A stretch of DNA of 30,921 nucleotides, taken from a virus. The position numbers and the translations under genes were made by a program. Positions 366-13,001 of this stretch are shown here, piece by piece (position 1 is the first letter of the stretch; each line of letters opens with the position of its first letter). The stretch spans positions 1 through 30,921 of the IMG/VR virus record IMGVR_UViG_3300020392_001319; one strand, written 5' to 3'. Under the pieces are notes generated by a model. It was given only the letters and a program-made list of their open reading frames with translations, had not been told where the DNA came from and ran no database searches.

Positions 366-406
366 GTAAATATTGTATTGACAATATATATGCCATTTGA
401 TAGTTT
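366..406 (+). promoter_or_regulatory. early promoter P1 (shared phage promoter class)
   Basis: GTAAATATT (366-374), 3 bp, TTGACA (378-383), 17 bp and TAGTTT (401-406). The same arrangement recurs at four other places in the window. The -35 box lies in a small inverted repeat, TATTGT-ATTG-ACAATA. The transcript leads to the gene at 434 through the ribosome binding site GAGGTTC (424-430), 3 nt before the ATG. Confidence 0.75.
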
Positions 407-433
407 GTATATATAAACAAAAAGAGGTTCAAA

Positions 434-748
434 ATGACTTACAATACTCAAGAAAAATTCAAAACAAATACTTACTTTGACGGTGATGTTATCAGATGGA
501 TCAGCAACAACAGCGTTCCACCAAAAGATATTGTAGAGCAATTCTTTGAAAATGGTTTTATTACTGCAGAACAAAAAGAATATGCAGATAATACAAGAGA
601 CATCGAAACAGCTCAATTTATTGAAGAATACAAAAAGGCACAGGCAAACAGAACACCAGCACAGATCGAAGCAGAAAAAGCTGCAGTAAGAGAAGCATTT
701 TACAGCTGGGAAAATCCAGTCAATATTTTTACTGGGGAGAGCTTCTAA
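434..748 (+). CDS. small early protein, function unknown
   Basis: 104 aa, acidic and mostly helical by composition, with no motif I recognise. It has Trp-Ile-Ser near residue 22 and a Lys/Glu/Ala-rich helix around residues 70-92. No signal peptide or membrane segment is visible. It starts directly behind promoter P1 with GAGGTTC-AAA-ATG and is followed by the next gene with a one-base TAATG overlap, so the two are translated from one short rightward operon. Its place beside a strong early promoter suggests an early host-interaction or regulatory protein. That is inference from position only. Confidence 0.8.
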   Translation: MTYNTQEKFKTNTYFDGDVIRWISNNSVPPKDIVEQFFENGFITAEQKEYADNTRDIETAQFIEEYKKAQANRTPAQIEAEKAAVREAFYSWENPVNIFTGESF

Positions 749-957
749 TGTTCAATTTTCAAACTGATTACGAGAAAACAATTTACGAAAACAGAACACA
801 CTTTGTGGCGGTACGGGGAAAGGGGGCAAACCGTATCCGCAAAGAATTTAAAACATTTTTTGAAGTGGTAGATTTTGCAAGACCTTACAATGATAACAGA
901 ACAATGGTCTATGCAGTAAACGAACTTGGATCATCTGCTCATATTACTAATCTTTGA
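748..957 (+). CDS. small early protein, function unknown
   Basis: 69 aa and basic, with KGANRIRKEFKTFFEVVDFA in the middle. I do not recognise the family. It is translationally coupled to the upstream gene (TAATG). Its 3' end overlaps the 3' end of the opposing cytidylyltransferase gene by 27 bp, so the two transcripts converge. No clear terminator lies between them. Confidence 0.7.
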   Translation: MFNFQTDYEKTIYENRTHFVAVRGKGANRIRKEFKTFFEVVDFARPYNDNRTMVYAVNELGSSAHITNL

Positions 958-1386
958 GTTTTCCAGCTTTGTTGATTCGCTTTTTTCAAGCTCGGTTACC
1001 ACGACTCGTTTTCTAAGAAGGCTCGAACTGAAATCGTGCCTTCTTTTATTGTAGTAAATTTCCATATCTAAATTTTTACCAGTAAAATCTTTATCGCGAT
1101 ACTCTTCACCGATAATTCTTATATGAATGTTGTACAATTTTAAAATATCAAGCAAATCGTTTTCTTTTTGATAAGGTATTATTTCATCAACATACGAGAT
1201 TGCCTTTAATTGTGTGTATCTTTCTACCAATGTTTGTATTGGCTCATTTTTTTCTTTACGCTCTTCGTGTGGATTTACATGCAACCCGACCAATAAATAA
1301 TTACAAACATTTTTTGCCTCTGAAAGCATTGCTACATGCCCTGCATGGAGTAAATCAAATGTAGATGCGGTAAATCCTATTTTCAT
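931..1386 (-). CDS. TagD-like cytidylyltransferase/nucleotidyltransferase
   Basis: 151 aa with the nucleotidyltransferase fold signature: KIGFTASTFDLLHAGH at the N-terminus (HxGH at residues 14-17, which binds the nucleotide triphosphate) and RRHDFSSSLLRKR near residues 115-128, in place of the usual RTxGISTT loop. Relatives such as glycerol-3-phosphate cytidylyltransferase join CTP to a phosphorylated small molecule to make a CDP-linked donor. The substrate cannot be read from sequence. It is the last gene of a leftward cassette and overlaps the glycosyltransferase by ATGA. The Lys/Glu/Ser-rich C-terminal tail (after about residue 129) contains a repeat shared with 13914-13945. Confidence 0.85.
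   Translation of the reverse strand: MKIGFTASTFDLLHAGHVAMLSEAKNVCNYLLVGLHVNPHEERKEKNEPIQTLVERYTQLKAISYVDEIIPYQKENDLLDILKLYNIHIRIIGEEYRDKDFTGKNLDMEIYYNKRRHDFSSSLLRKRVVVTELEKSESTKLENSKISNMSR
959..992. repeat. dispersed repeat, copy 1 (partner at 13914-13945)
   Basis: Bases 975-992 are the exact reverse complement of 13928-13945 (AGCTTGAAAAAAGCGAAT). The adjoining block 959-982 matches 13914-13937 at 21 of 24 positions in the inverted sense. It lies in the 3' end of the cytidylyltransferase gene, at a convergent gene junction. Confidence 0.6.
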
Positions 1387-2297
1387 CTAACCTTAACCAT
1401 TTTCATTCCGTAGTCTTTTACTTTCCCTGTCCAATCAATGTCAGTTCTACGAATTAATTTTTGTTTTTTAAATCTATTATAATCTACATGATGGTGCCAC
1501 CTACCATATTTCTTCACCAATCTTGAACAGTCGGGATGTACCTTTACTTGCATTTTAGATTTTTCTAATGTTCCAGTATCTGCATACCTGTCACCAGCTT
1601 GCACGCTCCCTTCTTTATGATAAAACTCGTCTGTATTACCACCTTTCATGACTTGTGTATTTGTTTTTTCTTGCAGAAAAACATTAAATTGAGTTGTACA
1701 CCAACCTGCTTTTAAAATATCTAAAGATAAAATTGTATCTTCGTTATATCTACCACGCCACCGATATTTCAGTTCATTACGAATAAGGTTACAACTATAA
1801 ATTCTTGTATTAAGAACGAAAGGTGGCAATCTGGTTTTGCGAGGTGCAAACATCATATAATTTGGACCTGCCATTCCGATGTTTGTATATCGTTGTACGA
1901 AATCTTCCATTACCTTGAAACAAGTGCCATCGGTTACCTTAACCTGCAAATTTTTGTTGAAACGATGGAAATATTTAATGTTATCATCCATTACCCAATG
2001 CCAAGCAAATCCAAAACTTTTAGAGTGTTCCCAAGCAAAATTTCTGGCAGGTCCCGCGCCAGTACTTTTTTTAAGTCCCAATTCATCACAAAGCTCATAT
2101 TTTTCTTTGTAAGACATATCCAGTGGAATAATTGTTGTAAGCAAATCCCAATGTTTTATTGCTTTTGCATACTCGTCTAATTCTTGTGGTTCTACAATTA
2201 TGTAATGCGGAACCTTCATCGTTGTAAGTGCCTTTGAGGTCATCATATATTCTGCACGTCCCTTACTTGGAATATACAGAGGAAACTCAGGTTTCAC
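1383..2297 (-). CDS. TET-associated glycosyltransferase (TAGT) family protein
   Basis: About 304 aa, with the TAGT layout: PLYIPSKGR at the N-terminus, STGAGPARNFAWEHS, the metal/nucleotide-sugar motif HWVMDDNIKYF, and RWRGRYNEDTILSLDIL toward the C-terminal half. TAGT enzymes are known from phages, where they transfer sugars to oxidised pyrimidines in DNA. The chosen start is GTG 2297, which has GGAG 6 nt upstream. ATG 2324 is open in frame but has no ribosome binding site and overlaps the ParB-fold gene more deeply. The 3' end overlaps the cytidylyltransferase by ATGA. The sugar and base substrates are unknown, and the TET oxygenase that would normally make the acceptor is not in this window. 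Confidence 0.85.
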   Translation of the reverse strand: MKPEFPLYIPSKGRAEYMMTSKALTTMKVPHYIIVEPQELDEYAKAIKHWDLLTTIIPLDMSYKEKYELCDELGLKKSTGAGPARNFAWEHSKSFGFAWHWVMDDNIKYFHRFNKNLQVKVTDGTCFKVMEDFVQRYTNIGMAGPNYMMFAPRKTRLPPFVLNTRIYSCNLIRNELKYRWRGRYNEDTILSLDILKAGWCTTQFNVFLQEKTNTQVMKGGNTDEFYHKEGSVQAGDRYADTGTLEKSKMQVKVHPDCSRLVKKYGRWHHHVDYNRFKKQKLIRRTDIDWTGKVKDYGMKMVKVR

Positions 2298-2949
2298 TTT
2301 CGTCTCCGTGAACTCGATAAGCATCTAAATCTGTTCTTGCTGGTTCTGGAAATCTTATAAATCTTGTTGCCTCAGTAAGAGGTAAACCAGTCTTTTCTGC
2401 AAATAAATTTACATCTTCTTGATTATCAAAATGTATTTTTATTGTTCTAAAATAATCTAGATTTTCATTGTCGTATTCTGGCATATCTTGCCATTCATCA
2501 AATGCATCTGTCTCGCCAAAATCTTTATCTAAAAATAAGTCAGTCAGTTCATCTAATTCAAAACCCATTGTAGAAATATCAAACTTTTCTAATTCTAATT
2601 GTTTTATTTCAACTTTTAAAAGCTCTTCATCCCATTCTGCATTTATTGCTAATTTATTATCTGCAATAACATACGCGCGTTTTTGTGCATCTGACCAACC
2701 TTTTGCAATCATAACTGGTATTTTTTGCAATTCTAACTTCTGTGCAGCGAGAAGTCTGCCGTGACCAGCAATCAAGGTATTTTTTTCGTCAATTAGAATC
2801 GGAACTGTAAATCCCCATTCTTGAATACTTGCTGCTATCTGTGCAATCTGTTCAGTGCTATGAACTCTGCTATTTCGTGCATACGGAATTAATTTATCAG
2901 TTTCAAATAAAACTATTTTTGTTGCAGGCCATTTTTCTTGTTTGCTCAT
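2287..2949 (-). CDS. ParB/sulfiredoxin-fold nuclease-like protein
   Basis: 220 aa. The N-terminal ParB-like domain (about residues 10-105) shows LIPYARNSRVHS, GFTVPILIDEKNTLIAGHGRLLAAQKL and ADNKLA, the pattern of phage ParB-domain proteins. GHGR is the nucleotide-binding loop. The C-terminal part (about 155-215) has a FRTIKIHFDNQEDVNLFAEKTG segment that often follows this domain in phages. Such proteins occur beside phage DNA-modification enzymes, and this one sits between an FkbM methyltransferase and a TAGT. No partner ParA is present, so a partitioning role is unlikely. The start is ATG 2949, with AGG overlapping the upstream stop. Confidence 0.85.
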   Translation of the reverse strand: MSKQEKWPATKIVLFETDKLIPYARNSRVHSTEQIAQIAASIQEWGFTVPILIDEKNTLIAGHGRLLAAQKLELQKIPVMIAKGWSDAQKRAYVIADNKLAINAEWDEELLKVEIKQLELEKFDISTMGFELDELTDLFLDKDFGETDAFDEWQDMPEYDNENLDYFRTIKIHFDNQEDVNLFAEKTGLPLTEATRFIRFPEPARTDLDAYRVHGDESET

Positions 2950-2957
2950 TTATCTAC

Positions 2958-3650
2958 CTATGCATTTGTACAGTATACGTTACTTACCCATGCACCTTTT
3001 GTTTCTTCACGATAATGAACCTTTTTGAAAAATCTTTTAAGGAATGAAATTAATGCACGATATTTTTCTCTTGTATCAATATCGTTCAAGTGAGCATGGT
3101 GAAATTCAAAAATTATCTCTCTAAATTTTTTAATATTTGCTGGTTCGATTGCCATTAATATTTCAAACTCTGCACCCTCTGTATCAACTTTCATTACAGA
3201 CGGATTTGTTTCTTTGATAATTTTATTTATTTCTTTACAATCTACTGTTTGCGAACCGCGTCCCCTTTTTGGTATCAAAGAATGACAACCTTTATTTTTC
3301 TTTTTATTAATAGACAGATACCTTTTCTTGTCGTTATTACCAATTACAGCAACATTATATAATTTTACATTTTCTCTATTATTTAATGAAACGTTTTTAC
3401 TCGCTAATTCAAAATTTTCTGGTTCTGGTTCAAACGAATATACAAACTTACATTTTTCAGATGCAATAACTGAAAATACACCAATATTTAAACCAATGTC
3501 TAAACAAACATCTTGTGGATAAAGTTTTAATTTATTGTATGCACTTCCAGAAACCTCTTTAACTACAAAACTATCACTGGTGCCTTCTCGTACAACAAAA
3601 CTTCTATTTTTATGAGTGAACATTTTACGTTTGTAGGTTTCTGTTATCAC
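2958..3650 (-). CDS. FkbM-family SAM-dependent methyltransferase
   Basis: 230 aa Rossmann methyltransferase. The SAM-binding motif is CLDIGLNIGVFSV (residues 49-61), followed by the acidic FEPEPENF (73-80) and the FkbM hallmark VMKVDTEGAEFEIL (about 153-166). The family usually O-methylates sugars or small hydroxyl groups. With TAGT and a cytidylyltransferase in the same operon, a transferred sugar is a plausible substrate, but this is inference. The start is GTG 3650, with GGGAG 7-8 nt upstream. It is the first gene of the cassette and lies just after a leftward terminator, with no clear promoter in between. Confidence 0.88.
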   Translation of the reverse strand: MITETYKRKMFTHKNRSFVVREGTSDSFVVKEVSGSAYNKLKLYPQDVCLDIGLNIGVFSVIASEKCKFVYSFEPEPENFELASKNVSLNNRENVKLYNVAVIGNNDKKRYLSINKKKNKGCHSLIPKRGRGSQTVDCKEINKIIKETNPSVMKVDTEGAEFEILMAIEPANIKKFREIIFEFHHAHLNDIDTREKYRALISFLKRFFKKVHYREETKGAWVSNVYCTNA

Positions 3651-3695
3651 AATATTTCTCCCAAATTTTGTAACTACAATACATACATTTCCTAT

Positions 3696-3721
3696 AAAAA
3701 AAACCCCCTAAAAAAGGGGGT
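3696..3721 (-). terminator. rho-independent terminator, leftward
   Basis: Read leftward: ACCCCC, a 7-nt loop, GGGGGT, then eight T. It separates the replication genes (3772-4961) from the modification cassette (2958-3650). The cassette has no good promoter of its own, so read-through may matter. Confidence 0.8.
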
Positions 3722-3771
3722 ACAAAGTTGAGGCAAACCAAGTGGTAATGACGCCAATCGCTGACCCTTGA

Positions 3772-4263
3772 TTATTTAGCCATATTACTAGATTTTTTTT
3801 GTGATGCAAGAAAATTCATGTAAGGTTTTAAATCATCTTCTGTAATTAAATTTTGTTGTAATAATTTTTGCGCACCACCGCCAACTATCCACCATTCGCC
3901 AACACTTTCTAAATTTTTAATTCTTTTTGCATTGATTAAAGAGGGATCAAAGTCTTTTGGAGCTTCTTGAATAACCAAATCATCATCCATTTTATCCCGA
4001 TATTCTTTGACACCTTTTGTAAAAATATTTATTGTCGGCCATTTTCTAGATGATTGGTTTTTTCTTACATACTGTGCTACTTTTTCTAAAAGATACCTCA
4101 TGCCTGACTCATTTAATTTTGGTATTTCGCTATTAATATCTTCTACCATCAAAACCATTTCTTCTCTACAAGCATCTTCGTCCATATGTGATGGTACCTC
4201 ATAGCGTTTTAATGTTTGCATCAACCATGCAGAAATTTGTCTTTTTCGTTGCTCGTAATTCAT
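3772..4263 (-). CDS. replication-associated protein, function unknown
   Basis: 163 aa and hydrophilic. An N-terminal helical region (NYEQRKRQISAWLMQTLKRYE) is followed by an acidic segment and a WWIVGGGAQKLLQQNL stretch near the C-terminus. I do not recognise the family. Its start overlaps the stop of the upstream initiator-like gene by ATGA, so the two are coupled. Genes in this position in lambdoid-type phages often encode a helicase loader or other partner of the initiator. No Walker motif is visible, so a DnaC-like ATPase is not supported. Confidence 0.75.
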   Translation of the reverse strand: MNYEQRKRQISAWLMQTLKRYEVPSHMDEDACREEMVLMVEDINSEIPKLNESGMRYLLEKVAQYVRKNQSSRKWPTINIFTKGVKEYRDKMDDDLVIQEAPKDFDPSLINAKRIKNLESVGEWWIVGGGAQKLLQQNLITEDDLKPYMNFLASQKKSSNMAK

Positions 4264-4961
4264 TGTTTTTCAATTCCTAGGGTTTTTGATTTGAACAGAT
4301 TTTTCAAAAAATCAGATGTTTTTTCTGGTTCTATATTTTCTATTTCGTCATCCCATCTTTCTTGATTTAACCATGTTGCAAGATGTGGAATAAACTTTTT
4401 CGTTTTTCCATTGACAGCCTCAATATATTCAAAAACAGCATCGCGTAGTGCTGAATCATTTATTTTTGAACATGCTTTAACCCATGCTTTTTTTGCTGCA
4501 CCCTTGCCAACTTTTCTTGGATACCTTTCCCAAACCTCATCAAAAAATGTAATAACCCTTATATTATCTGGTTCAATTACTTGGTTATTATTTACAAGGT
4601 TAAGGGTGTTAAAATCTTTTATAAGCCCTTGTTCATTTTTTTGACTAGGTATGTCAAAATTTTTGACTACCTCTGCTTCTTTTTCGTTATCAACAAGTAA
4701 CAATTCGTATGTATTAGATGTATGTGAACCATTGTCTCTAAATCTCGGTTTAATTTCTATTAAACCCGCTTCTTCTAAAATTTTTAATTGATTAATAATA
4801 CTCTGCCTTGTCATTTCACAACATTCAGCCAAACGTTTATGGCTAGGGAAACATTCACCACTTTCGCCATTGTAATGATCGGCAAGCCAGTACAAAACAA
4901 TTTTAGCGGAAGGTTTAATTCCCTTCTGTTTCATTGCAAGTGCAGTCATATAATGTGACAT
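4260..4961 (-). CDS. phage replication initiator-like protein with N-terminal winged HTH
   Basis: About 233 aa. The N-terminal half carries a winged HTH of the HTH_36 type: ALAMKQKGIKPSAKIVLYWLADH, ECFPSHKRLAECCEMTRQSI and the wing GLIEIKPRF. A low-complexity linker leads to a C-terminal block, FDEVWERYPRKVGKGAAKKAW through IPHLATWLNQERWDDE, common in phage O-like proteins that bind the origin and recruit helicase. The start is set by AAGGAG (4973-4968), which fits ATG 4961. The frame is open 8 codons further. The linker DNA holds spaced repeats that could be the origin. The gene reads leftward, away from the recombination operon. Confidence 0.85.
   Translation of the reverse strand: MSHYMTALAMKQKGIKPSAKIVLYWLADHYNGESGECFPSHKRLAECCEMTRQSIINQLKILEEAGLIEIKPRFRDNGSHTSNTYELLLVDNEKEAEVVKNFDIPSQKNEQGLIKDFNTLNLVNNNQVIEPDNIRVITFFDEVWERYPRKVGKGAAKKAWVKACSKINDSALRDAVFEYIEAVNGKTKKFIPHLATWLNQERWDDEIENIEPEKTSDFLKNLFKSKTLGIEKQ
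4638..4672. other. spaced direct/inverted repeats inside the initiator gene (candidate origin)
   Basis: TTTTTGACTA occurs twice, 22 bp apart. The inverted copy TGTCAAAA lies between, giving an imperfect dyad with arms AGGTA/TACCT and GTCAAAA/TTTTGAC. The site lies in the AT-rich linker of an O-like gene, where lambdoid phages keep their iterons. This is suggestive only. Confidence 0.35.
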
Positions 4962-5007
4962 TGATTTCTCCTTTACAAAAATCAAAAATATTGATATGTG
5001 AAGGGCA

Positions 5008-5025
5008 CACTTAAGCCCTTAAGTG
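5008..5025. promoter_or_regulatory. perfect palindrome, candidate operator
   Basis: CACTTAAGCCCTTAAGTG has 8-bp perfect arms and a 2-bp centre, and lies about 47 bp upstream of the initiator start. An overlapping second dyad is AAGGGC (5001-5006) with GCCCTT (5015-5020). No repressor gene is obvious in the window. Confidence 0.5.
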
Positions 5026-5031
5026 ACGCAT

Positions 5032-5076
5032 AAGGTCATACAGTTTTGATAGTTTCTGTATGACCTTTTTTCTTTT
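5032..5076 (+). terminator. strong hairpin with rightward T-tract between divergent operons
   Basis: Perfect 12-bp arms AAGGTCATACAG/CTGTATGACCTT enclose a 12-nt loop and are followed on the plus strand by TTTTTTCTTTT. It is a rightward terminator by structure, yet no rightward gene precedes it for 4 kb. It may insulate promoter P2, or form a leader hairpin in the leftward transcript. Confidence 0.65.
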
Positions 5077-5111
5077 AAATAATTTTAGTTATAAAGTCAC
5101 CAAAAGTTTTT

Positions 5112-5152
5112 GTAAATATTTGGTTGACAAATAAATCCTTTAAAATTAGTAT
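5112..5152 (+). promoter_or_regulatory. early promoter P2 for the recombination operon
   Basis: GTAAATATT (5112-5120), 3 bp, TTGACA (5124-5129), 17 bp and TAGTAT (5147-5152). The leader ends in GAGGTTC (5173-5179), 3 nt before ATG 5183. Spacing and boxes match P1, P3 and P4. Confidence 0.8.
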
Positions 5153-5182: not shown

Positions 5183-5425
5183 ATGATTACAAAATACGTA
5201 TCAGCATTAGACGTTAAATTAGAAATCTGTTCAGAAATTCATGATCACAATGGTAAACTTTTGCAAGATATGGAAGATGATAAAATTTCATACGATGAAT
5301 ACAAAAGGTTGGCATATCCACCAAGATGTTTGCAAATGCTTGATGTGGCAATAGAAAGGGCATTTGATAAAAGTAAGTTTTCTGCTGCATTAACCCTTAT
5401 CAAGGATAAAGAAAATGCAGATTGA
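5183..5425 (+). CDS. small early protein, function unknown
   Basis: 80 aa, acidic N-terminal half, probably all helical. No known motif is seen. It opens the rightward recombination operon directly behind promoter P2 and uses the leader GAGGTTC-AAA-ATG. Its 3' end overlaps the Gp157-like gene by 11 bp. First position ahead of Gp157/ERF/SSB suggests an accessory of recombination or early takeover. The sequence itself does not show a function. Confidence 0.78.
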   Translation: MITKYVSALDVKLEICSEIHDHNGKLLQDMEDDKISYDEYKRLAYPPRCLQMLDVAIERAFDKSKFSAALTLIKDKENAD

Positions 5426-5897
5426 TAGTGGACTTGTTACAATGGTTTCCGAAGAATTAGCAGATTACGCTGATGATTTAGAAACATTTTGGGATACTCT
5501 TGATGGAGAAACAGATGTTCTTGATTTCGTTGGTACTGTTTTAGAAAAAGTAAACGAAACAGAATGTCAAATAGAGTCAATGAATGCCTTAATTGATCGG
5601 TACAATCTTAGACGTAATGGATTAAAACAGCGTAAAGATGCATTGAAAGAAACGCTTCACAAAATTCTTTTAATGACCAATCAGAAAAAAATACCACATG
5701 CGATAGCTACTGTATCGCTTAGAAAAGGAGGTGAAATACTAAATATAACTGACGAGAATAAAATTCCGTCACAACTTTGTAAGGTAAACATCATACCCGA
5801 TAAAATAGAAATCAAAAAACAATTACAAGCAGGTGTACAGATTGATGGAGCCGAATTGGTATCTGGTAACACAACTATAAGTATAAGGATGAAGTAA
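5415..5897 (+). CDS. siphovirus Gp157-like protein
   Basis: 160 aa. The first half is a helical coiled-coil-like region (VLEKVNETECQIESMNALIDRY through LKQRKDALKETLHKILLM). The second half is a beta-rich segment, KIPHAIATVSLRKGG through LVSGNTTISIRMK. This is the Gp157 architecture (Streptococcus phage Sfi-type resistance-associated protein), commonly found just upstream of ERF or RecT annealing proteins. Its biochemical role is not established. The start is ATG 5415, with AAGGA 8 nt upstream, overlapping the previous stop by 11 bp. The ERF gene follows without a gap. Confidence 0.85.
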   Translation: MQIDSGLVTMVSEELADYADDLETFWDTLDGETDVLDFVGTVLEKVNETECQIESMNALIDRYNLRRNGLKQRKDALKETLHKILLMTNQKKIPHAIATVSLRKGGEILNITDENKIPSQLCKVNIIPDKIEIKKQLQAGVQIDGAELVSGNTTISIRMK

Positions 5898-6524
5898 ATG
5901 AATGAAGTTAAAAATACAGACGCAATCACCGCATTTGTTGAAGCCCAAGCAAATATGGGAAAAGCAATTAAAAATCAAAAAAATGCCTTTTTGAATAACG
6001 CATACGCAGATTTATCTGCAATACAAGATGCCGTTATACCTGCATTTGCATCAAAAGGTTTTGCAATTATTCAAGAGTGTGGTGCTGACGAACATGGAAA
6101 ATTTGTCAAGACAAGTGCAGTACATACATCTGGTCACTCGTTTACAAGTACCGTTTATCTAGAATACAAAAAATCTGATATGCAGTCGCTTGGTGGTGCA
6201 ATCACATATGCAAGACGATATGGTTTGGCATCATTGACAGGTGTACCAGTACAAGATGATGATGGTAATAAAGCTGTCGGTGAAGATAGAATGCAAATTA
6301 AAAAAGATTTAAAAGAAAAATCAATCACACCAAAACAAGCAAGTGTTTTAGAACGTGCAATTAAATTAGAAAGAATGTTACCAACAATGGATGCAGATGC
6401 ACTTTTAAAATTCGGTAAAGAAGCACAAAATATTATCGACAATATAAAAACATTTAATGAAGAAAGATCAGCAGAATTAGAAGTACAGTGGCAAAGTAGA
6501 GAAGCAGAACTGGAGATTAATTAA
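5898..6524 (+). CDS. erf: ERF-family single-strand annealing protein
   Basis: 208 aa. The ERF core spans residues 1 to about 130: FVEAQANMGKAIKNQKNAFLNNAYADL, then the diagnostic GGAITYARRYGLASLTGVP, followed by an acidic DDDGN. A charged helical C-terminal tail completes it. ERF proteins form rings on single-stranded DNA and anneal complementary strands during phage recombination and genome circularisation. It sits between Gp157-like and SSB genes, the usual recombination order. It starts right after the upstream stop and shares TAATG with the SSB gene. Confidence 0.93.
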   Translation: MNEVKNTDAITAFVEAQANMGKAIKNQKNAFLNNAYADLSAIQDAVIPAFASKGFAIIQECGADEHGKFVKTSAVHTSGHSFTSTVYLEYKKSDMQSLGGAITYARRYGLASLTGVPVQDDDGNKAVGEDRMQIKKDLKEKSITPKQASVLERAIKLERMLPTMDADALLKFGKEAQNIIDNIKTFNEERSAELEVQWQSREAELEIN

Positions 6525-6895
6525 TGCACATCCATATGTTTATTGGTAATCTTACAAAAGATTGCTCTGATGTAAGGAAAACCAACAGTGGTCACGATGT
6601 GGTTAATTTTTCTGTTGCTGTAAACGATAGAAGAAAAAAAACAACTGCGTATATTGATTGTAGTTTATGGGGACAACAAACAAGTATTGCGCAATATTTA
6701 AAGAAGGGAACAAAAGTATTTATATCTGGTGATTTTGGCACTGATGAATATAATGGTAATACAAGAATAACTTGTAATGTTGAGCAGCTTGAATTGCTTG
6801 GTGGGCGGAATAGAACCTCTCTGGACACTGACCAATCAACTGATGTTGACGAAAACACGGAACTGGATGGCTTGGATGATGAAATCCCGTTCTAG
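6524..6895 (+). CDS. ssb: single-stranded DNA-binding protein
   Basis: 123 aa OB-fold SSB: MFIGNLTKDCSDVRKTNSGHDVVNFSVAVNDR, then YIDCSLWGQQTSIAQYLKKGTKVFISGDF, an acidic disordered linker and the C-terminal tip DDEIPF, which docks repair and replication proteins. It coats ssDNA for ERF-mediated annealing and replication. It is somewhat shorter than bacterial SSB, as usual for phages. It is coupled to ERF by TAATG, and its 3' end overlaps the next gene by 17-20 bp. Confidence 0.95.
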   Translation: MHIHMFIGNLTKDCSDVRKTNSGHDVVNFSVAVNDRRKKTTAYIDCSLWGQQTSIAQYLKKGTKVFISGDFGTDEYNGNTRITCNVEQLELLGGRNRTSLDTDQSTDVDENTELDGLDDEIPF

Positions 6896-7292
6896 ACCAA
6901 CTTTACAAGTTATAAAGCGTGATGGGGTCTTGCACCCTGTCACGCGATATGACGCAGAAATGCTAGAGGTTTATAAAAATAATCAATTATTCAATATTCA
7001 AGCTGTCAGTGAGCGATCGCCTCAACACCATAAGCTGTATTGGTCTATTTTAAATAACGTAGTAAAAGCAACACAAAGGTGGGCAACATCTGCACATTTG
7101 CACGACGATTTAAAAATGCTTTGTGGTTATTACCGAACAGTTGTTAATAAAGCAAATGGTGGTGTATATTACGTTCCAGACAGTATAGCATTTAGTAAAA
7201 TGGATCAAAAAGAGTTTAACGATTTTTTTGAACAAGCCATGGAAAAGCTTTCTACCACCATTGGTTACGATCCTGTTTCGGAAATGTTATGA
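6879..7292 (+). CDS. DUF1367-like phage protein
   Basis: About 137 aa. The frame is open from 6777, but that upstream part lies out of frame inside SSB. The product probably begins at the tandem ATGs 6876/6879 that overlap the SSB stop. TLQVIKRDGVLHPVTRYDAEMLE at the start and HLHDDLKMLCGYY with DSIAFSKMDQKEFNDFFEQAMEKL toward the end resemble DUF1367/NinB-neighbour proteins of phage recombination operons. The resemblance is from memory. The function is unknown, probably recombination or junction processing. It overlaps the next gene by ATGA. Confidence 0.72.
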   Translation: MKSRSRPTLQVIKRDGVLHPVTRYDAEMLEVYKNNQLFNIQAVSERSPQHHKLYWSILNNVVKATQRWATSAHLHDDLKMLCGYYRTVVNKANGGVYYVPDSIAFSKMDQKEFNDFFEQAMEKLSTTIGYDPVSEML

Positions 7293-7615
7293 CAAATTTA
7301 GCCAACAAACCTCCAATCGGTTTAAAAAAAAGTAAAGTCAAAAAAAATCCAAAATATCTAGATAAAATACGATCAATGCCATGTTGTATTTGTCGTAAAT
7401 TTAACGAACCACAATTATCTGCAACAACAGCACATCATCCAATTCACGATAGATACAGTGCCAGAAAGCGATCTGATGATACAGCCATTCCACTTTGCGA
7501 TGGGCATCATCAAGGTTTATGGGATCAATCAAAGGTTGCCATTCATAAACAACCATTGGAATGGGAAAGATTGTATGGAAAAGATTATAAATACTCTGCA
7601 GCAAGTATTGACTGA
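7289..7615 (+). CDS. Ref/HNH-like phage nuclease
   Basis: 108 aa with a zinc-finger/HNH-like arrangement: PCCICRKFNE (Cys 32, 33, 35), TTAHHP (His 49-50), SDDTAIPLCDGHHQGLW (Cys 70, His 73-74). It resembles RecA-dependent nuclease Ref of phage P1 and the YbcO/DUF968 group, which nick or cut DNA during recombination. It is the last gene of the rightward operon, and its 3' end overlaps the opposing HAD gene by 31 bp. The assignment is by motif pattern, and the exact family is uncertain. Confidence 0.75.
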   Translation: MTNLANKPPIGLKKSKVKKNPKYLDKIRSMPCCICRKFNEPQLSATTAHHPIHDRYSARKRSDDTAIPLCDGHHQGLWDQSKVAIHKQPLEWERLYGKDYKYSAASID

Positions 7616-8286
7616 GTGTCTTTCCAGTTTCTTACATAATGGTATTTATGACAAGCCAAGGCAATGGTGTAATCATTACCATTTGGAAAAATACTATCGC
7701 CAAAAAAAATTGTCTGCTTATCTCTATAGTATTTATTTTTTATAATTTGACTTTTATCTTTTCCCTTTGGGAAAATATCTATTCCAGTTTCTCCTGCAAC
7801 AACAGCATTTAAACCAGCAAATTTGGTATTCACATACGCCGCACAAGCAGCTCTTTCTTTGTATTCTCTGTCCCAAGTTTTATACATATCTCTATCTTCT
7901 AATGAAGCAGGTCTACCAACAATGCTAAAATTTAACATTCCCATTCTAAGTTCAATATGATTTCCTAATTTTATGGGATATGCAGACGCATCACAAAGCG
8001 CAGCTAGGTGCGTAATTAATCTTTCGCTTGGTACCCAAGGCTTGGATGATAAAACCTCACCTAAAAATCGCTCTTCGTTTCCAGAGCAAGGAAATACAGC
8101 CTCACATTCACTTAATAATTCACCACTTAACTGTTTAACAATTTGCTGATAATCCGCACCACTTACAATTGAAACAGAATGTGACTCACAAAATGAGAAA
8201 AAAAATTCGTAAAATTCTTTATCAATTATTTGTTTACTTGGTGTAAGTGTACCATCCATATCGAAAATAAATACTGTTTCGGTCAT
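7585..8286 (-). CDS. HAD hydrolase of the phosphomannomutase-like (C2B) group
   Basis: About 233 aa. Motif I is FIFDMDGTLTPS (Asp 9 and Asp 11). Further on come SGADYQQI, the PMM-like GMLNFSIVGRPASLEDRDMY with TWDREYKER, GIDIFPKGKDKSQII and motif IV FFGDSIFPNGNDY. This run closely follows the eukaryote-type phosphomannomutases, which interconvert mannose-6-P and mannose-1-P, though relatives are plain sugar phosphatases. ATG 8286 forms an ATGA overlap with the rusA stop, and the four extra codons upstream are unlikely to be used. A sugar-phosphate enzyme could feed the glycosyltransferase at 1383-2297. That link is inference. Confidence 0.85.
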   Translation of the reverse strand: MTETVFIFDMDGTLTPSKQIIDKEFYEFFFSFCESHSVSIVSGADYQQIVKQLSGELLSECEAVFPCSGNEERFLGEVLSSKPWVPSERLITHLAALCDASAYPIKLGNHIELRMGMLNFSIVGRPASLEDRDMYKTWDREYKERAACAAYVNTKFAGLNAVVAGETGIDIFPKGKDKSQIIKNKYYRDKQTIFFGDSIFPNGNDYTIALACHKYHYVRNWKDTQSILAAEYL

Positions 8287-8714
8287 GTTGCATCCCATTG
8301 AACTTTGATATTCAAATGAGGCTTTTCGTCAATGTCAGTATATTTTTTAAATGCAGCAATATGCCATACCTGTTTATCATCGTCATATACAATAGAATTA
8401 CACCCATCGAGTGCAGCCTTAACAATATTATCAATATCAGGACGCGGAGGTACAATATTACCAGCCTGACAGTGAAGAACTTTCTTTTTAGAATAAGATT
8501 TAGGAATTGGAAATACAGCCGTCATTATTACACTGCATCTTTTTTTTGATGCGCTTAAACGAAGCTTCTTCATTGCAACCCATGCTGAATTCTTGATTCG
8601 TGCCTCATAGTCTTTGGTTTCTTTTGGTGTATACGGCACACCAGTTTTTGTAAAACGTGGTCTGCCTTTCCCAACAGGAGTTCCAGATACTACAAAATTT
8701 ACTGTACGTAACAT
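8283..8714 (-). CDS. rusA: RusA-family Holliday junction resolvase
   Basis: 143 aa, full length for the family. VSGTPVGKGRPRF at the N-terminus and the acidic active-site block PPRPDIDNIVKAALDG (Asp 93, 95 and 103), followed by VYDDDKQV, match RusA, a dimeric Mg-dependent endonuclease that resolves four-way junctions made in phage recombination. It belongs to the leftward early block, overlapping the upstream gene by 16 bp and the HAD gene by ATGA. It complements the ERF/SSB operon on the other strand. Confidence 0.95.
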   Translation of the reverse strand: MLRTVNFVVSGTPVGKGRPRFTKTGVPYTPKETKDYEARIKNSAWVAMKKLRLSASKKRCSVIMTAVFPIPKSYSKKKVLHCQAGNIVPPRPDIDNIVKAALDGCNSIVYDDDKQVWHIAAFKKYTDIDEKPHLNIKVQWDAT

Positions 8715-9124
8715 TTGTTTTTCTTAAATTCTAAATTTTCATTTGCATCAACATCACATATCCAGATGTCTTCTGTTTTATCATCCATAACAACAATAAT
8801 ATGACTACCGTGACCATTTTTTTCAGAAAATATTGGATGATATTGTAAATTTATTTTTTGACAGTTAAAAAGATTTTGCACATCAGCTTTCAATTTAGTT
8901 AAAAGTGTACTGGAAATACCTTCTCCGCGAAAAACAGTATACGACTGCAAATCTACATTGTGATCAAGTAACGTTTTATCAATTTTATTGATTATTTTTT
9001 TAATCGATGCTAATTTTGTATCTTTATATTTATGATTTTGCTTAATATAAAAATGATAGTTTTCCATTGCAACTTTTATAGTTTCAAGTTGTGTTATTGC
9101 AAAATCTACAGCTACTTTTTTCAT
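8699..9124 (-). CDS. hypothetical protein
   Basis: 141 aa and basic. The N-terminal half is helical with many Lys (HKYKDTKLASIKKIINKIDKT). The C-terminal half is likely beta: GHGSHIIVVMDDKTEDIWICDVDA. No family is recognised. It starts at ATG 9124 with AAGGAA upstream. A structured intergenic element (9159-9223) lies in its 5' leader. It overlaps rusA by 16 bp, so it is co-transcribed with the resolvase. Cys residues are few and no catalytic motif is evident. Confidence 0.75.
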   Translation of the reverse strand: MKKVAVDFAITQLETIKVAMENYHFYIKQNHKYKDTKLASIKKIINKIDKTLLDHNVDLQSYTVFRGEGISSTLLTKLKADVQNLFNCQKINLQYHPIFSEKNGHGSHIIVVMDDKTEDIWICDVDANENLEFKKNKCYVQ

Positions 9125-9158
9125 TGAATTTTGCTATTCCTTTTTGTAAAACTTTTAA

Positions 9159-9223
9159 GTGGCGGTGGGATATTTCTTCTTATTAAAACCACAACAGTTT
9201 ATCTGTTATTTTTTCACCGCCAC
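9159..9223 (-). other. structured intergenic element (long-range GC hairpin with nested hairpin)
   Basis: GTGGCGGTG (9159-9167) pairs perfectly with CACCGCCAC (9215-9223) across 47 nt. Inside is a second hairpin, AACAG-TTTAT-CTGTT (9193-9207). It begins 8 nt after the stop of the upstream gene. No T-tract follows on either strand, so it is not a simple terminator. A regulatory RNA leader for the gene at 8699-9124, or a processing site, is possible. Confidence 0.55.
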
Positions 9224-9231
9224 ACGATTAT

Positions 9232-9624
9232 CTAAATTTTTATACCTGCTGCTCTGCATTTAGAATAAAATTCTGTCAGGTCTTTTTTTGCAAGGTAATA
9301 ATTATTGGTCGCGTTTTTGTCCGAATCAGACCTCCATCGTTCTCGTTCCCAATATAAAACTTGCTGTGTTAAGTATTTGCGCTCTTGAATAAGTCCTTCG
9401 GATAATTTTTCTTTTGACATTGGTTTCCTATGTTTAAAAAATATGTTGTGATTATAAGCAAAAGTTCTCAGGGTAATTACGTTGACCTGCAAAATCTCTG
9501 CAATGGCTGGTGCCGAAAAACCAGCATCGGCATAACATTTAATCGTTTCAATTCTCATTTGCCTTCGAGCAAGTTTTAGTTCAGATTTTGCTTTATTTAC
9601 TTTTTGACGTAAGGATATATTCAT
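9232..9624 (-). CDS. HTH-containing protein
   Basis: 130 aa. A helix-turn-helix is visible at about residues 26-58: IKCYADAGFSAPAIAEILQV, NVITLRTFAYNHNIFF. The rest is helical and charged (LSEGLIQERKYLTQQVLYWERERW). The HTH ends in xxHNIxF like that of the small protein at 10976-11185, and the two flank the 459-aa gene. It is probably a DNA-binding accessory or regulator, with target unknown. The start overlaps the upstream gene by 32 bp. No earlier or better start is apparent. Confidence 0.75.
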   Translation of the reverse strand: MNISLRQKVNKAKSELKLARRQMRIETIKCYADAGFSAPAIAEILQVNVITLRTFAYNHNIFFKHRKPMSKEKLSEGLIQERKYLTQQVLYWERERWRSDSDKNATNNYYLAKKDLTEFYSKCRAAGIKI

Positions 9625-10972
9625 GTTCGATTATTCCCAGTTCTGCATTTCCAACTGTACACTGTTTGACCCATGTACGTTTTTTAATTCGCCCATGAAC
9701 ATCTTTTAAAACGCGCCAATGACCTCGTCTTGTATGCTGTCGTTTAGGTGTACCATGACCAGTAAAAAGCTGTTGATAGATATTTACGCCATGTTTTGGT
9801 AATTCAATTTCAATAACTTTTAATTCATTTCTAGGAACACGCTGACCCCATTTTATTTGTGGATATATTTTTTGTGGCGCATGAACCTCTCGAACAAACC
9901 TTGGATAATTCAAAAGAGAAAAAACAGCAGCCAGAAATCTTAAATCACTATCACATGCCATTGCTGTGTTTGTAAGCTGTTGTTTAATTTTATCTTCTTG
10001 CTCGAGGTCTGTATGATAATTTAATTTTGTTGCAGTAATATCGGTTTCACCAAACGCAATTTGTTGACCAAAGTTTTTCATTGCTGTTTTAGGAAAGTCT
10101 TCTGCAAAATGATCACAATATTTTTTTCCAAGCAACCTGTTAAATAAATCAGGACTTTCTGTGTATGGTTTTCCCTTATGTTGACATCCAAGAGATGCCA
10201 AAGAGTCTTCATTTGAAAAAAACCAAGACCAAGAACTCATCATTGCATCTTGTGCAGATTTTTTTGTCATCGTTTGATCTGTGTAAAATTGTTCGCTCAA
10301 ACAAACTGTATATTGAAAAATATTAGAACCTCTATTCTCTATATGATAAGCTGTTTTATTTGCTACATATGGTCGTCTATCGTATTCAGTTGGTATTCCC
10401 AGTGTTTCGTTTTGTTTTTGTACCTCATCAAATTTTACCAATTCATTCCACTCTATCCAAAGATTATCAAAACAGGGAATTGCTTTTGGTAGAAGTTGTA
10501 AAATATATTTTGGATACGAAAACGAAAGTGCTACAGCGTTTCTTACAAAATCATCCGATAAGGTAATACGCTCACTTTCTATGATCTTTTTGCGCATGAG
10601 TTTGAAATCATAATCAAGGCGTTTCTTTTCGTCAGGTTGTGCAAATGCAAAATCAATAAAAAAAGCCTTCTTTGGATTTGCCAGTGCTGCGAGGAAAGTA
10701 TTGTAAAGATAACTTTCTTGTTCTGGTCTTACGACCAAATTATCTGTACCATCGTGCGCTATTCCTGCTGTTTGTCCCCAACCAAATGGTTTATCCCATT
10801 TTTCATTATCTTTATCGCGATAAAAATAATCATCAAATATTGATTGTTCGTCTTTTGAAAATTGTGATTTAACCTGTTGAACTATGTCTTGTCTATTGCC
10901 AATTTTAATTTCACTGAAATTGTTTGATTGTTGACTGTTTAATTGAACTGGTAATTTATTTTTTTTCACCAT
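9593..10972 (-). CDS. large conserved-looking protein of unknown function
   Basis: 459 aa, soluble, and the longest early gene in the window. No enzyme motif is certain. The C-terminal 60 residues contain QHTRRGHWRVLKDVHGR, then KKRTWVKQCTVGNAELG, an RRGHWR...WV pattern I have seen in uncharacterised phage and plasmid proteins. Other features are a Trp/Phe-rich middle (MSSWSWFFSNED) and GLxGK-like LFNRLLGKKYCDHF. It starts at ATG 10972 with AGGG upstream, next to an HTH protein. A replication or regulatory role is a guess from neighbours only. Confidence 0.8.
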   Translation of the reverse strand: MVKKNKLPVQLNSQQSNNFSEIKIGNRQDIVQQVKSQFSKDEQSIFDDYFYRDKDNEKWDKPFGWGQTAGIAHDGTDNLVVRPEQESYLYNTFLAALANPKKAFFIDFAFAQPDEKKRLDYDFKLMRKKIIESERITLSDDFVRNAVALSFSYPKYILQLLPKAIPCFDNLWIEWNELVKFDEVQKQNETLGIPTEYDRRPYVANKTAYHIENRGSNIFQYTVCLSEQFYTDQTMTKKSAQDAMMSSWSWFFSNEDSLASLGCQHKGKPYTESPDLFNRLLGKKYCDHFAEDFPKTAMKNFGQQIAFGETDITATKLNYHTDLEQEDKIKQQLTNTAMACDSDLRFLAAVFSLLNYPRFVREVHAPQKIYPQIKWGQRVPRNELKVIEIELPKHGVNIYQQLFTGHGTPKRQHTRRGHWRVLKDVHGRIKKRTWVKQCTVGNAELGIIEHEYILTSKSK

Positions 10973-10975
10973 TAC

Positions 10976-11185
10976 TTATGCCCTTTTCTTTTTTTTACCT
11001 TTCCGAAATTTTTGCTGTTCGCCAATAAAATTAATATTGTGTATTTTACAAAATTGATAAATCTGTTGACGATGCATTCCAAGAATACGAGCAGCCTCTG
11101 ATTGACTATGGCCTTTCTCAATTTGGTCAAAGATCAGTGCCTTTCGTTCTTCTTTTTGTTTTCGTATCAGGTCATTCCATTTCAT
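10976..11185 (-). CDS. small HTH DNA-binding protein
   Basis: 69 aa and very basic. Residues 17-50 form a Fis/homeodomain-like HTH: LIFDQIEKGHSQSEAARILGM, HRQQIYQFCKIHNI. A Lys/Arg-rich tail (RKGKKKKRA) would bind the DNA backbone. It is probably a transcriptional regulator or nucleoid-type protein. It lies 3 nt upstream of the 459-aa gene. The start is ATG 11185 with GCGGGGA upstream. It is one candidate to bind the shared promoter element, though nothing in the sequence ties it there. Confidence 0.82.
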   Translation of the reverse strand: MKWNDLIRKQKEERKALIFDQIEKGHSQSEAARILGMHRQQIYQFCKIHNINFIGEQQKFRKGKKKKRA

Positions 11186-11201
11186 TTATTATTTTTCCCC
11201 G

Positions 11202-11435
11202 CTAGTTAATACTGTCTTTAAAATCTTCAAAATCATTGTATCGTAGATTAAGAAATTTCATTATTCTGTCTGGTATTTTAAAACCTCCCTTCTCGTCTCC
11301 CCGACTGTCGTTTAAATATACATCTGTTATATTTGTTTCAGATGTAATCGTATCAAAGGTACCTTCTACAACAATATCAAATGTTTTACCTTTTACTTCT
11401 ACATTCATAAATTGATTATGATGAATATATGCCAT
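11202..11435 (-). CDS. small early protein, function unknown
   Basis: 77 aa and acidic. VEVKGKTFDIVVEGTFDTITS suggests beta strands, followed by a helical C-terminus. No family is recognised. It follows a leftward hairpin terminator (11447-11473) yet carries the special leader GAGGTTC (11444-11438), 2 nt before its ATG, like the promoter-proximal early genes. Expression may therefore depend on read-through from P3 past the hairpin. Confidence 0.75.
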   Translation of the reverse strand: MAYIHHNQFMNVEVKGKTFDIVVEGTFDTITSETNITDVYLNDSRGDEKGGFKIPDRIMKFLNLRYNDFEDFKDSIN

Positions 11436-11437
11436 GT

Positions 11438-11444
11438 GAACCTC
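11438..11444 (-). promoter_or_regulatory. GAGGTTC-type ribosome binding site
   Basis: GAGGTTC stands 2 nt before ATG 11435. The same seven bases precede the starts at 434, 5183, 11699, 12864 and 13036. The TTC part is not explained by Shine-Dalgarno pairing. Confidence 0.6.
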
Positions 11445-11446
11445 TT

Positions 11447-11473
11447 AAAATTAGGAGGGGGCTGTTGCCCCCT
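11447..11473 (-). terminator. leftward GC-rich hairpin, probable terminator or attenuator
   Basis: Read leftward: AGGGGGC-AACA-GCCCCCT, then CCTAATTTT. The 7-bp stem is strong but the T-tract is weak, so partial termination between 11478-11699 and 11202-11435 is likely. The stem resembles the rightward terminator at 13881. Confidence 0.6.
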
Positions 11474-11477
11474 GTTG

Positions 11478-11699
11478 TTATGATGTCATGTTTACTGATG
11501 CTACGTAATGTCCTGTTCCACAAATCCATTTGAAAGCAAACCTTTTAGCCAAAGAAGCGGCTTGTGTTCTATTTGTTGCGTCTACACCAACAAAAACTGT
11601 GTCACCATTTGATTGATCTGTGCCAACTTCAACATCGTATCCATGTGCTTTTGACGGATCGGAAAGCCAGATTTGATTGCTGTGAATTTTAATTTCCAT
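11478..11699 (-). CDS. small early protein, function unknown
   Basis: 73 aa. EIKIHSNQIWLSDPSKAHGYDVEVG, then VFVGVDATNRTQAASLAKRFAFKWICG, suggests a compact alpha/beta domain with no recognised family. It is expressed from promoter P3 with leader GAGGTTC-ACA-ATG and is followed directly by a GC-rich hairpin. It may thus be a near-monocistronic, highly expressed early gene. Single-gene units like this in phages often encode host-takeover proteins, which is inference only. Confidence 0.78.
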   Translation of the reverse strand: MEIKIHSNQIWLSDPSKAHGYDVEVGTDQSNGDTVFVGVDATNRTQAASLAKRFAFKWICGTGHYVASVNMTS

Positions 11700-11724
11700 T
11701 GTGAACCTCTCTTTCTATATATAC

Positions 11725-11765
11725 AGACTAATATATTTGCACATAGTTGTCAATATAATATTTAC
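11725..11765 (-). promoter_or_regulatory. early promoter P3
   Basis: On the minus strand: GTAAATATT (11765-11757), 3 bp, TTGACA (11753-11748), 17 bp and TAGTCT (11730-11725). The leader carries GAGGTTC (11709-11703), 3 nt before ATG 11699. Confidence 0.75.
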
Positions 11766-11776
11766 ATTTATTTTAA

Positions 11777-12097
11777 TTAATTTTTAACTTTCCATTTGAT
11801 ACAAGATTTTCCCCATTTGGTTTTACCTCTGTAACCACTGTCAATAACCTTACCGCTGTTCTGCAGTTCACTCAGTCGAGGTTGAACACTTGCGTATGGG
11901 CAATTTAGAAAATCTGCTATTTCTTCTGTTGTTAATGCAACACCAGCTTTTTGTAATAATTCAAAAACACGATCTCGTATTGTTAATTTATGGTTAGGGC
12001 TGCTTTGCGCAGCCCTCTTGCTTGTATCTGTCTTTTGATAACCGATACCTGTGTCTCTAAAATAACCACTGTTATAAATCATTTTATTATTATTCAT
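11777..12097 (-). CDS. winged-helix DNA-binding protein
   Basis: About 106 aa. After a polar N-terminus, KLTIRDRVFELLQKAGVALTTEEIADFL, NCPYASVQPRLSELQNSGKV and the wing DSGYRGKTKWGKSCIKWKV form a typical winged HTH (MarR/Penicillinase-repressor-like topology). The start is set by AAGGAG 10-11 nt before ATG 12097. The 20 codons upstream overlap the previous gene and have no binding site. It is the third gene of the P4 transcript and may be an early transcription regulator. The target is unknown. Confidence 0.82.
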   Translation of the reverse strand: MNNNKMIYNSGYFRDTGIGYQKTDTSKRAAQSSPNHKLTIRDRVFELLQKAGVALTTEEIADFLNCPYASVQPRLSELQNSGKVIDSGYRGKTKWGKSCIKWKVKN

Positions 12098-12098
12098 T

Positions 12099-12629
12099 TT
12101 ATTCGTCTCCTTTGAAATTTTGTACTCCAGTACCTGTGTAATTTTCTTTTTTAACAAATCTTGTTTGCCAACCGAAAGGTATGTTTGCTTCTTCTGGCAT
12201 CACAATTAAATGATACTGATTAGCCGTATTGACCATTTTACTTTCTTTTGGAAAAATTTGTATTGCATCACATTCTGTGCCACAAAGCCTGTTCTTAATT
12301 GTTTGCATATCTTGCCAATTATTCACAGGTCTTCTGTCTTTGCGTCGAATAGATAACCAAGTACATTTACCTTTAAATTCTGGATTATGTACCAAATCGT
12401 CTGCCGCCTCTCTGCGATAGACCATGATAATGTAAATATCATTTTTCCAAGTCTCTTGAAGGTACTCTTTCAGCAAATGAATTTTCATTTCTTTTAAAGT
12501 TCGATTTGCATATGCTTCTGGCAAATCATTCTTCAATTCTTGGGCTTGCTGCTCTAACCTTTCTTCGGTTGGCATGTCAGTGACAAGCCTAAGCTTGCCA
12601 CCTTTTGGATTTACTTGTTTAGTTAACAT
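12099..12629 (-). CDS. DUF7694-like phage protein
   Basis: 176 aa. The C-terminal two thirds show a recognisable block: NDIYIIMVYRREA, WLSIRRKDRRPVNNWQDMQTIKNRLCG, then ECDAIQIFPKESKMVNTANQYHLIVMP and PFGWQTRFV. I associate this pattern (drrP...W..mQ.IKN.L.G.E.EA...P.es..v...NqyHL) with the DUF7694 family found in many phages and some bacteria. The role is unknown. The start overlaps the upstream gene by 11 bp. It is the second gene of the P4 unit. Confidence 0.8.
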   Translation of the reverse strand: MLTKQVNPKGGKLRLVTDMPTEERLEQQAQELKNDLPEAYANRTLKEMKIHLLKEYLQETWKNDIYIIMVYRREAADDLVHNPEFKGKCTWLSIRRKDRRPVNNWQDMQTIKNRLCGTECDAIQIFPKESKMVNTANQYHLIVMPEEANIPFGWQTRFVKKENYTGTGVQNFKGDE

Positions 12630-12864
12630 CGTTCATTTTCCTCGCATGATCTAAAACCCTCATTCTTTCAGAGTAAGAAAGTTGAGCAATTATATTCAAA
12701 ACCTTGATTGCGTGTTTACGAACTTCTTCTTTTGAAAAATTATATTGTTTTGGCTTTTTATTTGCCTCCCTGATAATTTCATTTAATTTTGGATTTTTAG
12801 TTTTTAATTTATCTAGCTGATCATCTGTAAAATCATCTAGAGTAAAATATGGTTTGTTTTTCAT
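12619..12864 (-). CDS. small early protein, function unknown
   Basis: 81 aa, basic and helical (DDFTDDQLDKLKTKNPKLNEIIREANKK, then KEEVRKHAIKVLNIIAQLSYSERMRVLDHARKM). No family is recognised. The Lys/Arg-rich helices could bind nucleic acid. It opens the leftward P4 unit. The leader holds a perfect 9-bp inverted repeat (12885-12906) and the GAGGTTC binding site 2 nt before ATG 12864. It is coupled to the DUF7694-like gene by an 11-bp overlap. Confidence 0.78.
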   Translation of the reverse strand: MKNKPYFTLDDFTDDQLDKLKTKNPKLNEIIREANKKPKQYNFSKEEVRKHAIKVLNIIAQLSYSERMRVLDHARKMNDVN

Positions 12865-12884
12865 TAGAACCTCGTTTGATAGTT

Positions 12885-12906
12885 TTGTCTAAATCATTTT
12901 AGACAA
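12885..12906 (-). promoter_or_regulatory. perfect inverted repeat at the P4 start: operator or leader hairpin
   Basis: Arms TTGTCTAAA and TTTAGACAA surround a 4-nt centre, beginning 4 bp downstream of the P4 -10 box, so the repeat covers the expected start site. Outside it, GATAGT and ACTATC add a second, unevenly spaced pair. The other four early promoters lack this repeat, so P4 has an extra control. Confidence 0.6.
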
Positions 12907-12910
12907 TTTA

Positions 12911-12951
12911 ATACTATCACATACATTATTATATGTCAATACAATATTTAC
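12911..12951 (-). promoter_or_regulatory. early promoter P4 (divergent with P5)
   Basis: Minus strand: GTAAATATT (12951-12943), 3 bp, TTGACA (12939-12934), 17 bp and TAGTAT (12916-12911). The GAGGTTC leader is at 12873-12867. The upstream elements of P4 and P5 face each other with TTTACA and TGTAAA only 9 bp apart, forming one dyad centred near 12956. Confidence 0.8.
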
Positions 12952-12961
12952 ATAAAATTTT

Positions 12962-13001
12962 GTAAATTAATTATTGACAGTAGCTAGGTTTGTGATAGTT
13001 T
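12962..13001 (+). promoter_or_regulatory. early promoter P5 for the DUF932 gene
   Basis: GTAAATTAA (12962-12970), 3 bp, TTGACA (12974-12979), 16 bp and TAGTTT (12996-13001). The upstream box differs from the consensus in its last four bases and the spacer is one shorter, so it may be weaker. The leader ends in GGAGGTTC, with GAGGTTC at 13025-13031, 4 nt before ATG 13036. Confidence 0.72.

Follow-up and report, generated by a model that had tools for sequence, protein, structure and literature searches.

The DNA considered here (the window) is the whole 30,921-nucleotide stretch of the IMG/VR virus record IMGVR_UViG_3300020392_001319, a 30.9-kb piece of a tailed phage in which tail and lysis genes are read leftward and early-type genes stand behind five promoters, P1 to P5, and the candidate operator shared by these promoters is the subject of this work. 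Judged from its relatives, the phage is probably marine, since phages of Roseobacter and Pelagibacter have tail and TerS-like proteins similar to its own. A genome of 43.8 kb (G003) is nearly identical to the window and two 48-kb genomes (G001 and G002) are its relatives, the set spanning 43.8-48.5 kb, and megablast of the window against phage records of an isolate collection gave zero matches. Comparisons covered the site-bearing clades A, B and C and clade D, which is without the site; many of the contigs are related fragments. The five promoters and the genes behind them are as follows.

366-406, + strand: P1, divergent from a TerS-like late gene; dyad GTAAATATTGTATTGAC at 366-382, -35 TTGACA at 378-383, 17-bp spacer, -10 TAGTTT at 401-406 (TGATAGTTT)
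434-748, + strand: first gene behind P1, of unknown product, with other genes taking its place in clade C
748-957, + strand: second gene behind P1, 69 amino acids (aa), phrog_21360, kept in many of the phages with the site (box phages)
5112-5152, + strand: P2, divergent from the replication-initiation operon; dyad GTAAATATTTGGTTGAC at 5112-5128, -35 at 5124-5129, 17-bp spacer, -10 TAGTAT at 5147-5152
5183-7615, + strand: recombination/replication operon behind P2 (5183-5425, Gp157, ERF, SSB, NinB-like and HNH genes)
11765-11725, - strand: P3; dyad GTAAATATTATATTGAC at 11765-11749, -35 at 11753-11748, 17-bp spacer, -10 TAGTCT at 11730-11725
11478-11699 and 11202-11435, - strand: first two genes behind P3
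10976-11185, - strand: third gene behind P3, encoding a 69-aa Fis/KorA-type helix-turn-helix (HTH) protein, the proposed dyad-binding regulator
12951-12911, - strand: P4; dyad GTAAATATTGTATTGAC at 12951-12935, -35 at 12939-12934, 17-bp spacer, -10 TAGTAT at 12916-12911
12619-12864, 12099-12629 and 11777-12097, - strand: genes behind P4
12962-13001, + strand: P5, back to back with P4 (27 bp between dyad centres); dyad GTAAATTAATTATTGAC at 12962-12978, -35 at 12974-12979, 16-bp spacer, -10 TAGTTT at 12996-13001
13036-13875, + strand: DUF932 gene behind P5

A sequence-only reading of this DNA had placed these promoters in one class before early-type genes on both strands, and the architecture it described was seen at all five intergenic sites: a 9-bp box (GTAAATATT), a 3-bp gap, TTGACA, a spacer of 17 bp (16 bp in P5) and TAGTnT. 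Its count of four differences for the P5 box needs correction, as GTAAATTAA differs from GTAAATATT at three bases. Equal numbers of matches inside genes or in shuffled sequence, the outcome that would have spoken against such a class, were not found: none of the sites lies inside a gene, and GTAAAT-N6-TTGACA occurs five times in the window against a mean of 0.015 and a maximum of 1 in 200 dinucleotide shuffles, or five times against zero when the pattern is extended by the -10. The exact form, GTAAATATT-N3-TTGACA, has four copies in the window. Scanning of the genome, its relatives and IMG/VR with the full pattern, a search proposed by the same reading, confined the matches to this phage group, bar one coding-sequence coincidence in three unrelated contigs; a relaxed pattern gave three unrelated matches in 84,980 bacterial and archaeal genomes, with no trace of a bacterial regulon. 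A sixth copy, P0, lies outside the window (G001, 23509, +; G002, 34487, -; G003, 15281, -) and precedes a small gene that is inserted among the late genes but oriented against them.

Comparison of orthologous promoters indicates that the conserved unit is a 17-bp dyad, GTAAAY-N5-RTTKAC, in which the right arm also serves as the -35 hexamer. TTGAC reads GTCAA on the other strand and forms an imperfect palindrome with GTAAA; GTAAATATT is, on this comparison, the left arm of the dyad and no separate upstream box. The P5 ortholog, found via the DUF932 ortholog without using the motif, is present in clades A, B and C and retains GTAAAT and TTGACA in clades whose proteins are 54-68% identical; the P1 ortholog of clades B and C also has the dyad, and in promoters found by gene orthology the two outermost bases of the left arm, G and T, are invariant. 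The P2 orthologs (GTAAATGATTTGTTGAC, GTAAAACATTTGTTGAC and GTAAATTCTTTGTTGAC, together with GTAAATATTTGGTTGACA, GTAAATGATTTGTTGACT, GTAAAACATTTGTTGACT and GTAAATTCTTTGTTGACT) share only GTAAA-N7-TTGAC. The 9-bp box was rejected as the unit, since its bases 6-9 drift in orthologous promoters, as does the final A of TTGACA. The earlier proposal of a regulon factor touching GTAAATATT is retained in that a specific factor is the most likely explanation, and abandoned in that the box is no separate, phased 9-bp element.

When searched with GTAAA-N7-TTGAC, the genomes of clades A to C yielded intergenic promoter sites only (five in the window and six in each of G001-G003; 0.14-0.23 expected per genome), the three matches flagged as genic sitting in a spurious long start of the TerS-like open reading frame. 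The five D-clade genomes yielded none, nor did a search of that clade find a dispersed palindrome. Wider relatives, reached via the Gp157 protein, have GTAAA-N7-TTTAC at orthologous promoters (e.g., GTAAATAAACTATTTAC and GTAAATAATCTATTTAC), including near-perfect palindromes of the form GTAAATA-N3-TATTTAC, and the -35 is there TTTACA or TTTACT. The symmetry is thus kept while the centre drifts, as in a palindromic operator. Base 6 is Y and base 12 is R in 23 of the 27 distinct TTGAC-form 17-mers each, and these bases, which lie outside the search pattern, fit a dyad requirement. The re-pairing test gave a weak result (0.04 for pair 6-12 and no signal for pairs 7-11 and 8-10), so that the case for dyad symmetry is made by the two arms together with bases 6 and 12 and does not draw on the centre.

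Dyads were also seen at late genes. In clade C, an extra one (GTAAATATACATTTGACA) stands directly before the TerS-like start codon (G014, 7013-7030, +; G013, 15326-15343, +); it cannot be the -35 of that gene, and the late operon may be under the same protein. In the window, a perfect-arm site (GTAAATGCCATTTTTAC, 17684-17700), identical as a 17-mer in two other contigs, overlaps a late-gene start codon and looks like a codon coincidence.

The sites have the architecture of sigma-70 promoters, namely a -35, a TAnnnT -10, a ribosome-binding site and a start codon. Among 80 distinct TTGAC-form sites, 34 have TAnnnT at a spacing of 16 bp and 27 at one of 17 bp (61/80 together), against at most 11/80 at any other spacing from 8 to 29, and a Shine-Dalgarno-like sequence and a start codon lie close downstream in 77. 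This spacing peak argues that the dyad sites are real promoters, of which TAGTnT is one form of an ordinary -10; the latter, previously held to be unusual, drifts in relatives to ordinary TAnnnT at 16/17 bp, and its standing as a special element was given up. The best reading of the five sites is that they would be sigma-70-type early promoters. A bidirectional promoter at P2 (leftward TTTACA-17-TATAAC) was rejected, as it is not kept in relatives. An extended ribosome-binding sequence, GAGGTTC, is common to all five boxed first genes (window 424, 5173, 11703, 12867 and 13025), and the same word stands before boxed genes in clades B and C.

Regarding the factor that would bind the dyad, the sequence-only reading had offered three HTH proteins, of which the 10976-11185 product is the best candidate; those of 9232-9624 and 11777-12097 were set aside, having no B- or C-clade homologs in the gene-level comparison. 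Homologs of the 10976-11185 protein in clades B and C were missed at the gene level as well and detected only by profile, which finds 55-70 aa relatives in clades A, B and C and in L173, L129, L135, L148/L149/L152 and L155, with R-Q near-invariant in the recognition helix. In Pfam, HTH_28 and HTH_23 score over cut-off and HTH_8 reaches 22 bits for a cut-off of 22, with HTH_8 matching 9 of 11 family members at E 0.01 (best 2e-8); these were the only Pfam matches, and none was to KORA. An AlphaFold2 (AF2) model gives a confident monomer of four helices (predicted local distance difference test, pLDDT, 88). Among its weak fold matches are Fis and the DNA-binding domain of a sigma-54 activator (template modelling score, TM, 0.5-0.6), and no match in the fold searches fell below E 0.001.

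The protein and the site occur together. The HTH gene was present in 15/15 contigs that have two or more sites and extend over the place where it usually lies (G001, G002, G007, G013, G016, G031, G033, G036-G040, G042, G045 and G047), a positive being defined by RQ[QRS] in the recognition helix or by a strong profile score. None of the 22 contigs with zero or one site (G009-G012, G017, G021, G025-G028, G030, G032, G034, G046 and G048-G055) exceeded 34 bits in the HTH profile scan, the 34-bit match belonging to the sister pair G027/G028, whose protein is without R-Q; G041, with one site and the HTH gene, was counted apart. All positive contigs have a site 0.5-2.0 kb upstream of the gene, which argues that the gene is probably under its own operator. 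Moreover, a reverse scan of IMG/VR by the HTH protein alone recovered 19 contigs not seen before, and 17 of them (17/18 with enough upstream sequence) carry a site in the same orientation 625-1320 bp upstream, the chance of such a site being about 0.005-0.008 per locus. The exceptions are L293, cut 661 bp upstream, and L320, a weak match in a contig of 59% GC. The 17 include lineages that took no part in forming the idea (L297, L298, L299, L302 and L305; L303 and L304), although there are also some close to already known ones.

In this context, we consider it likely that each early promoter is occluded at its -35 by a dimeric early repressor under autoregulation, with a logic like that of Cro or KorA; the 10976-11185 protein as the binder, its dimeric state, repression as the effect and the time of action are all inferred. 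On infection, host RNA polymerase would use the five early promoters at once, and the P3 operon would yield the 69-aa HTH protein. This would bind the operator (e.g., GTAAATATTGTATTGACA) as a dimer, covering the -35 and competing with sigma, so that all early operons, the P3 operon included, would be turned down and negative feedback would end the early burst. Integrase or other lysogeny genes would mark a temperate-phage immunity repressor; a Phage_integrase match was absent from 15 genomes or contigs, with the limits that serine integrases were not searched for and that contigs may be incomplete. This absence, together with that of any HTH_3-scoring protein besides the 10976-11185 product in the A-clade genomes, speaks for early shut-off over lysogeny.

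Several observations weigh against this view. The structure model of the regulator is a monomer; some box-positive contigs are without the HTH gene, which is ascribed to truncation, in G014 and G044 judged by gene order, and in G029, G035 and G043 only because these are 12-kb fragments. Relatives have an early gene module in common, so their joint possession of site and gene does not count as independent evidence, and a Fisher test on it (run with rounded counts of 16 and 20) is not relied on because the contigs are related. Other small proteins, the 748-957 product and the TerS-like HTH protein, recur in box phages as well. Finally, clade D, which has no site, keeps a distant HTH relative with IDSHQL or IDTNSL in place of R-Q, a replacement that would fit a changed specificity.

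The dyad could be an operator for another binder, namely a host regulator, the 69-aa product of 748-957 or the TerS-like HTH protein encoded divergently from P1, which we regard as unlikely. Homologs of the 748-957 product follow P1 in many box phages, but the protein has no DNA-binding match; the TerS-like protein keeps 63-73% identity among box phages even where their large terminases are unrelated, and clade D lacks it, but L133 also has it and the contig of L133 (G032) is devoid of the site. The motif left no trace as a bacterial regulon in the 84,980 genomes at the pattern used, and either phage protein would leave unexplained how the HTH gene by itself could point to the site in contigs not seen before. 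In relatives, a small XRE gene lies divergent from the Gp157 operon; this gene was also rejected as binder, being absent from the box phages of clades A-C and from L173, and disfavoured further by its own intergenic region, which has other inverted repeats.

The repressor reading has also to be set against a different effect of the same protein, which would bind the dyad and activate the early promoters or silence a superinfecting genome. Fis-type proteins can activate, and operators at all early promoters would also give immunity; however, binding should compete with sigma because the -35, mostly a perfect TTGACA, is at once the right arm of the site, an activator behind its own operator could not start from nothing, and no integrase was found in the Phage_integrase search of the 15 genomes or contigs. 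Such an effect seems improbable to us. Slightly more improbable still is the absence of any specific factor, with GTAAATA acting as an A+T-rich UP-like element for the alpha subunit of host RNA polymerase beside a consensus -35. The left arm, at about -47 to -41, falls where the proximal UP subsite is located; nevertheless, UP elements need no G, whereas the outermost G and T of the arm are invariant, and an element of this kind would neither need the right arm to turn TTTAC when the left is GTAAA nor track an HTH gene. Repression by the 10976-11185 protein thus stays the preferred reading.

Taken more broadly, the balance tips modestly towards an undescribed family of 55-70 aa Fis/KorA-like phage repressors over many uncultured marine lineages, every repressor having a single palindromic operator of its own, in which the right arm supplies the -35 at all early promoters, and giving a self-limiting, genome-wide early shut-off in phages without a detected integrase. 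To our knowledge, early-gene control in uncultured marine phages is almost unknown, and here sequence comparison alone yields an operator, a likely regulator and a regulon for dozens of contigs, with one of the two predicted from the other in contigs not used to form the idea. The system is small (a 69-aa protein and 19 bp of DNA), its dyad could be used as an early-operon marker in phage metagenomes, and clade D, which lost the site and differs in the recognition helix, would make it a case of repressor/operator co-evolution.

Other features of these phages were observed beside the promoters. In closely related phages of clade C (G014, 6632-6941; G013, 15254; L101, L104 and L106) P1 stays and its first gene is swapped for unrelated small genes, as if it were a slot for cargo genes. 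The TerS-like HTH protein is encoded at window 1-283 (-) and at 29693-30127 of G002, with 66-73% identity between phages that have unrelated large terminases; D-clade phages, in contrast, combine a large terminase of 78% identity with a different small subunit. Box-poor relatives and clade D have, near the replication genes, an XRE (Cro-like) gene of a single domain (upstream of Gp157 in L118, L133, L135, L145, L147 and L153; also in G009, G010, G012 and G017); in several relatives it is divergent from the Gp157 operon, with TTTACA..TGTAAA or TTGC..GCAA inverted repeats in between. A cassette at window 931-2949 combines a nucleotidyltransferase with a TET-associated glycosyltransferase (PF20691) and a ParB-like protein, which suggests that the DNA is hypermodified or undergoes chemistry of a related kind. 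Lastly, TTTGATAGTTT lies in the loop of a rightward terminator-like hairpin (5034-5080) and, inverted, in the P4 leader hairpin (12868-12912).

No earlier description of this operator/protein pair was found in the open-access literature, and the known systems resemble it in part. Like lambda Cro/CI and the stoperator systems of mycobacteriophages L5 and L1, it would have an autoregulated phage regulator and several operators over early promoters; in contrast, no integrase was found here, the protein is by sequence not of the XRE/CI fold, and the sites stand only at promoters and are not spread through the genome as are those of L5/L1 type, which are asymmetric (PMC1934351). The C-terminal HTH_8 domain of Fis/NtrC-type proteins is similar in part, given the HTH_8 matches and Fis among the fold matches, but the phage operator has 17 bp with fixed GTAAA arms and Fis a loose consensus. 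KorA and ArdK of conjugative plasmids (RP4, R388) are small HTH repressors that exert negative feedback over several promoters through repeated operators, inverted at the -10 for KorA and direct at the -35 for ArdK (PMC9723621; PMC3937220). Similarity of the A4 profile to ArdK (chains 7bca/7bbq; E about 2e-4) extends over 37 residues and is limited to the HTH. KORA-domain proteins have about 100 aa and a dimerisation domain, whereas the phage protein has 55-70 aa and lacks the KorA dimerisation domain, and its site, unlike those of KorA and ArdK, takes in the -35 as part of an inverted repeat with N7. By analogy, then, the phage system is one that would work like KorA, and is not a KorA member.

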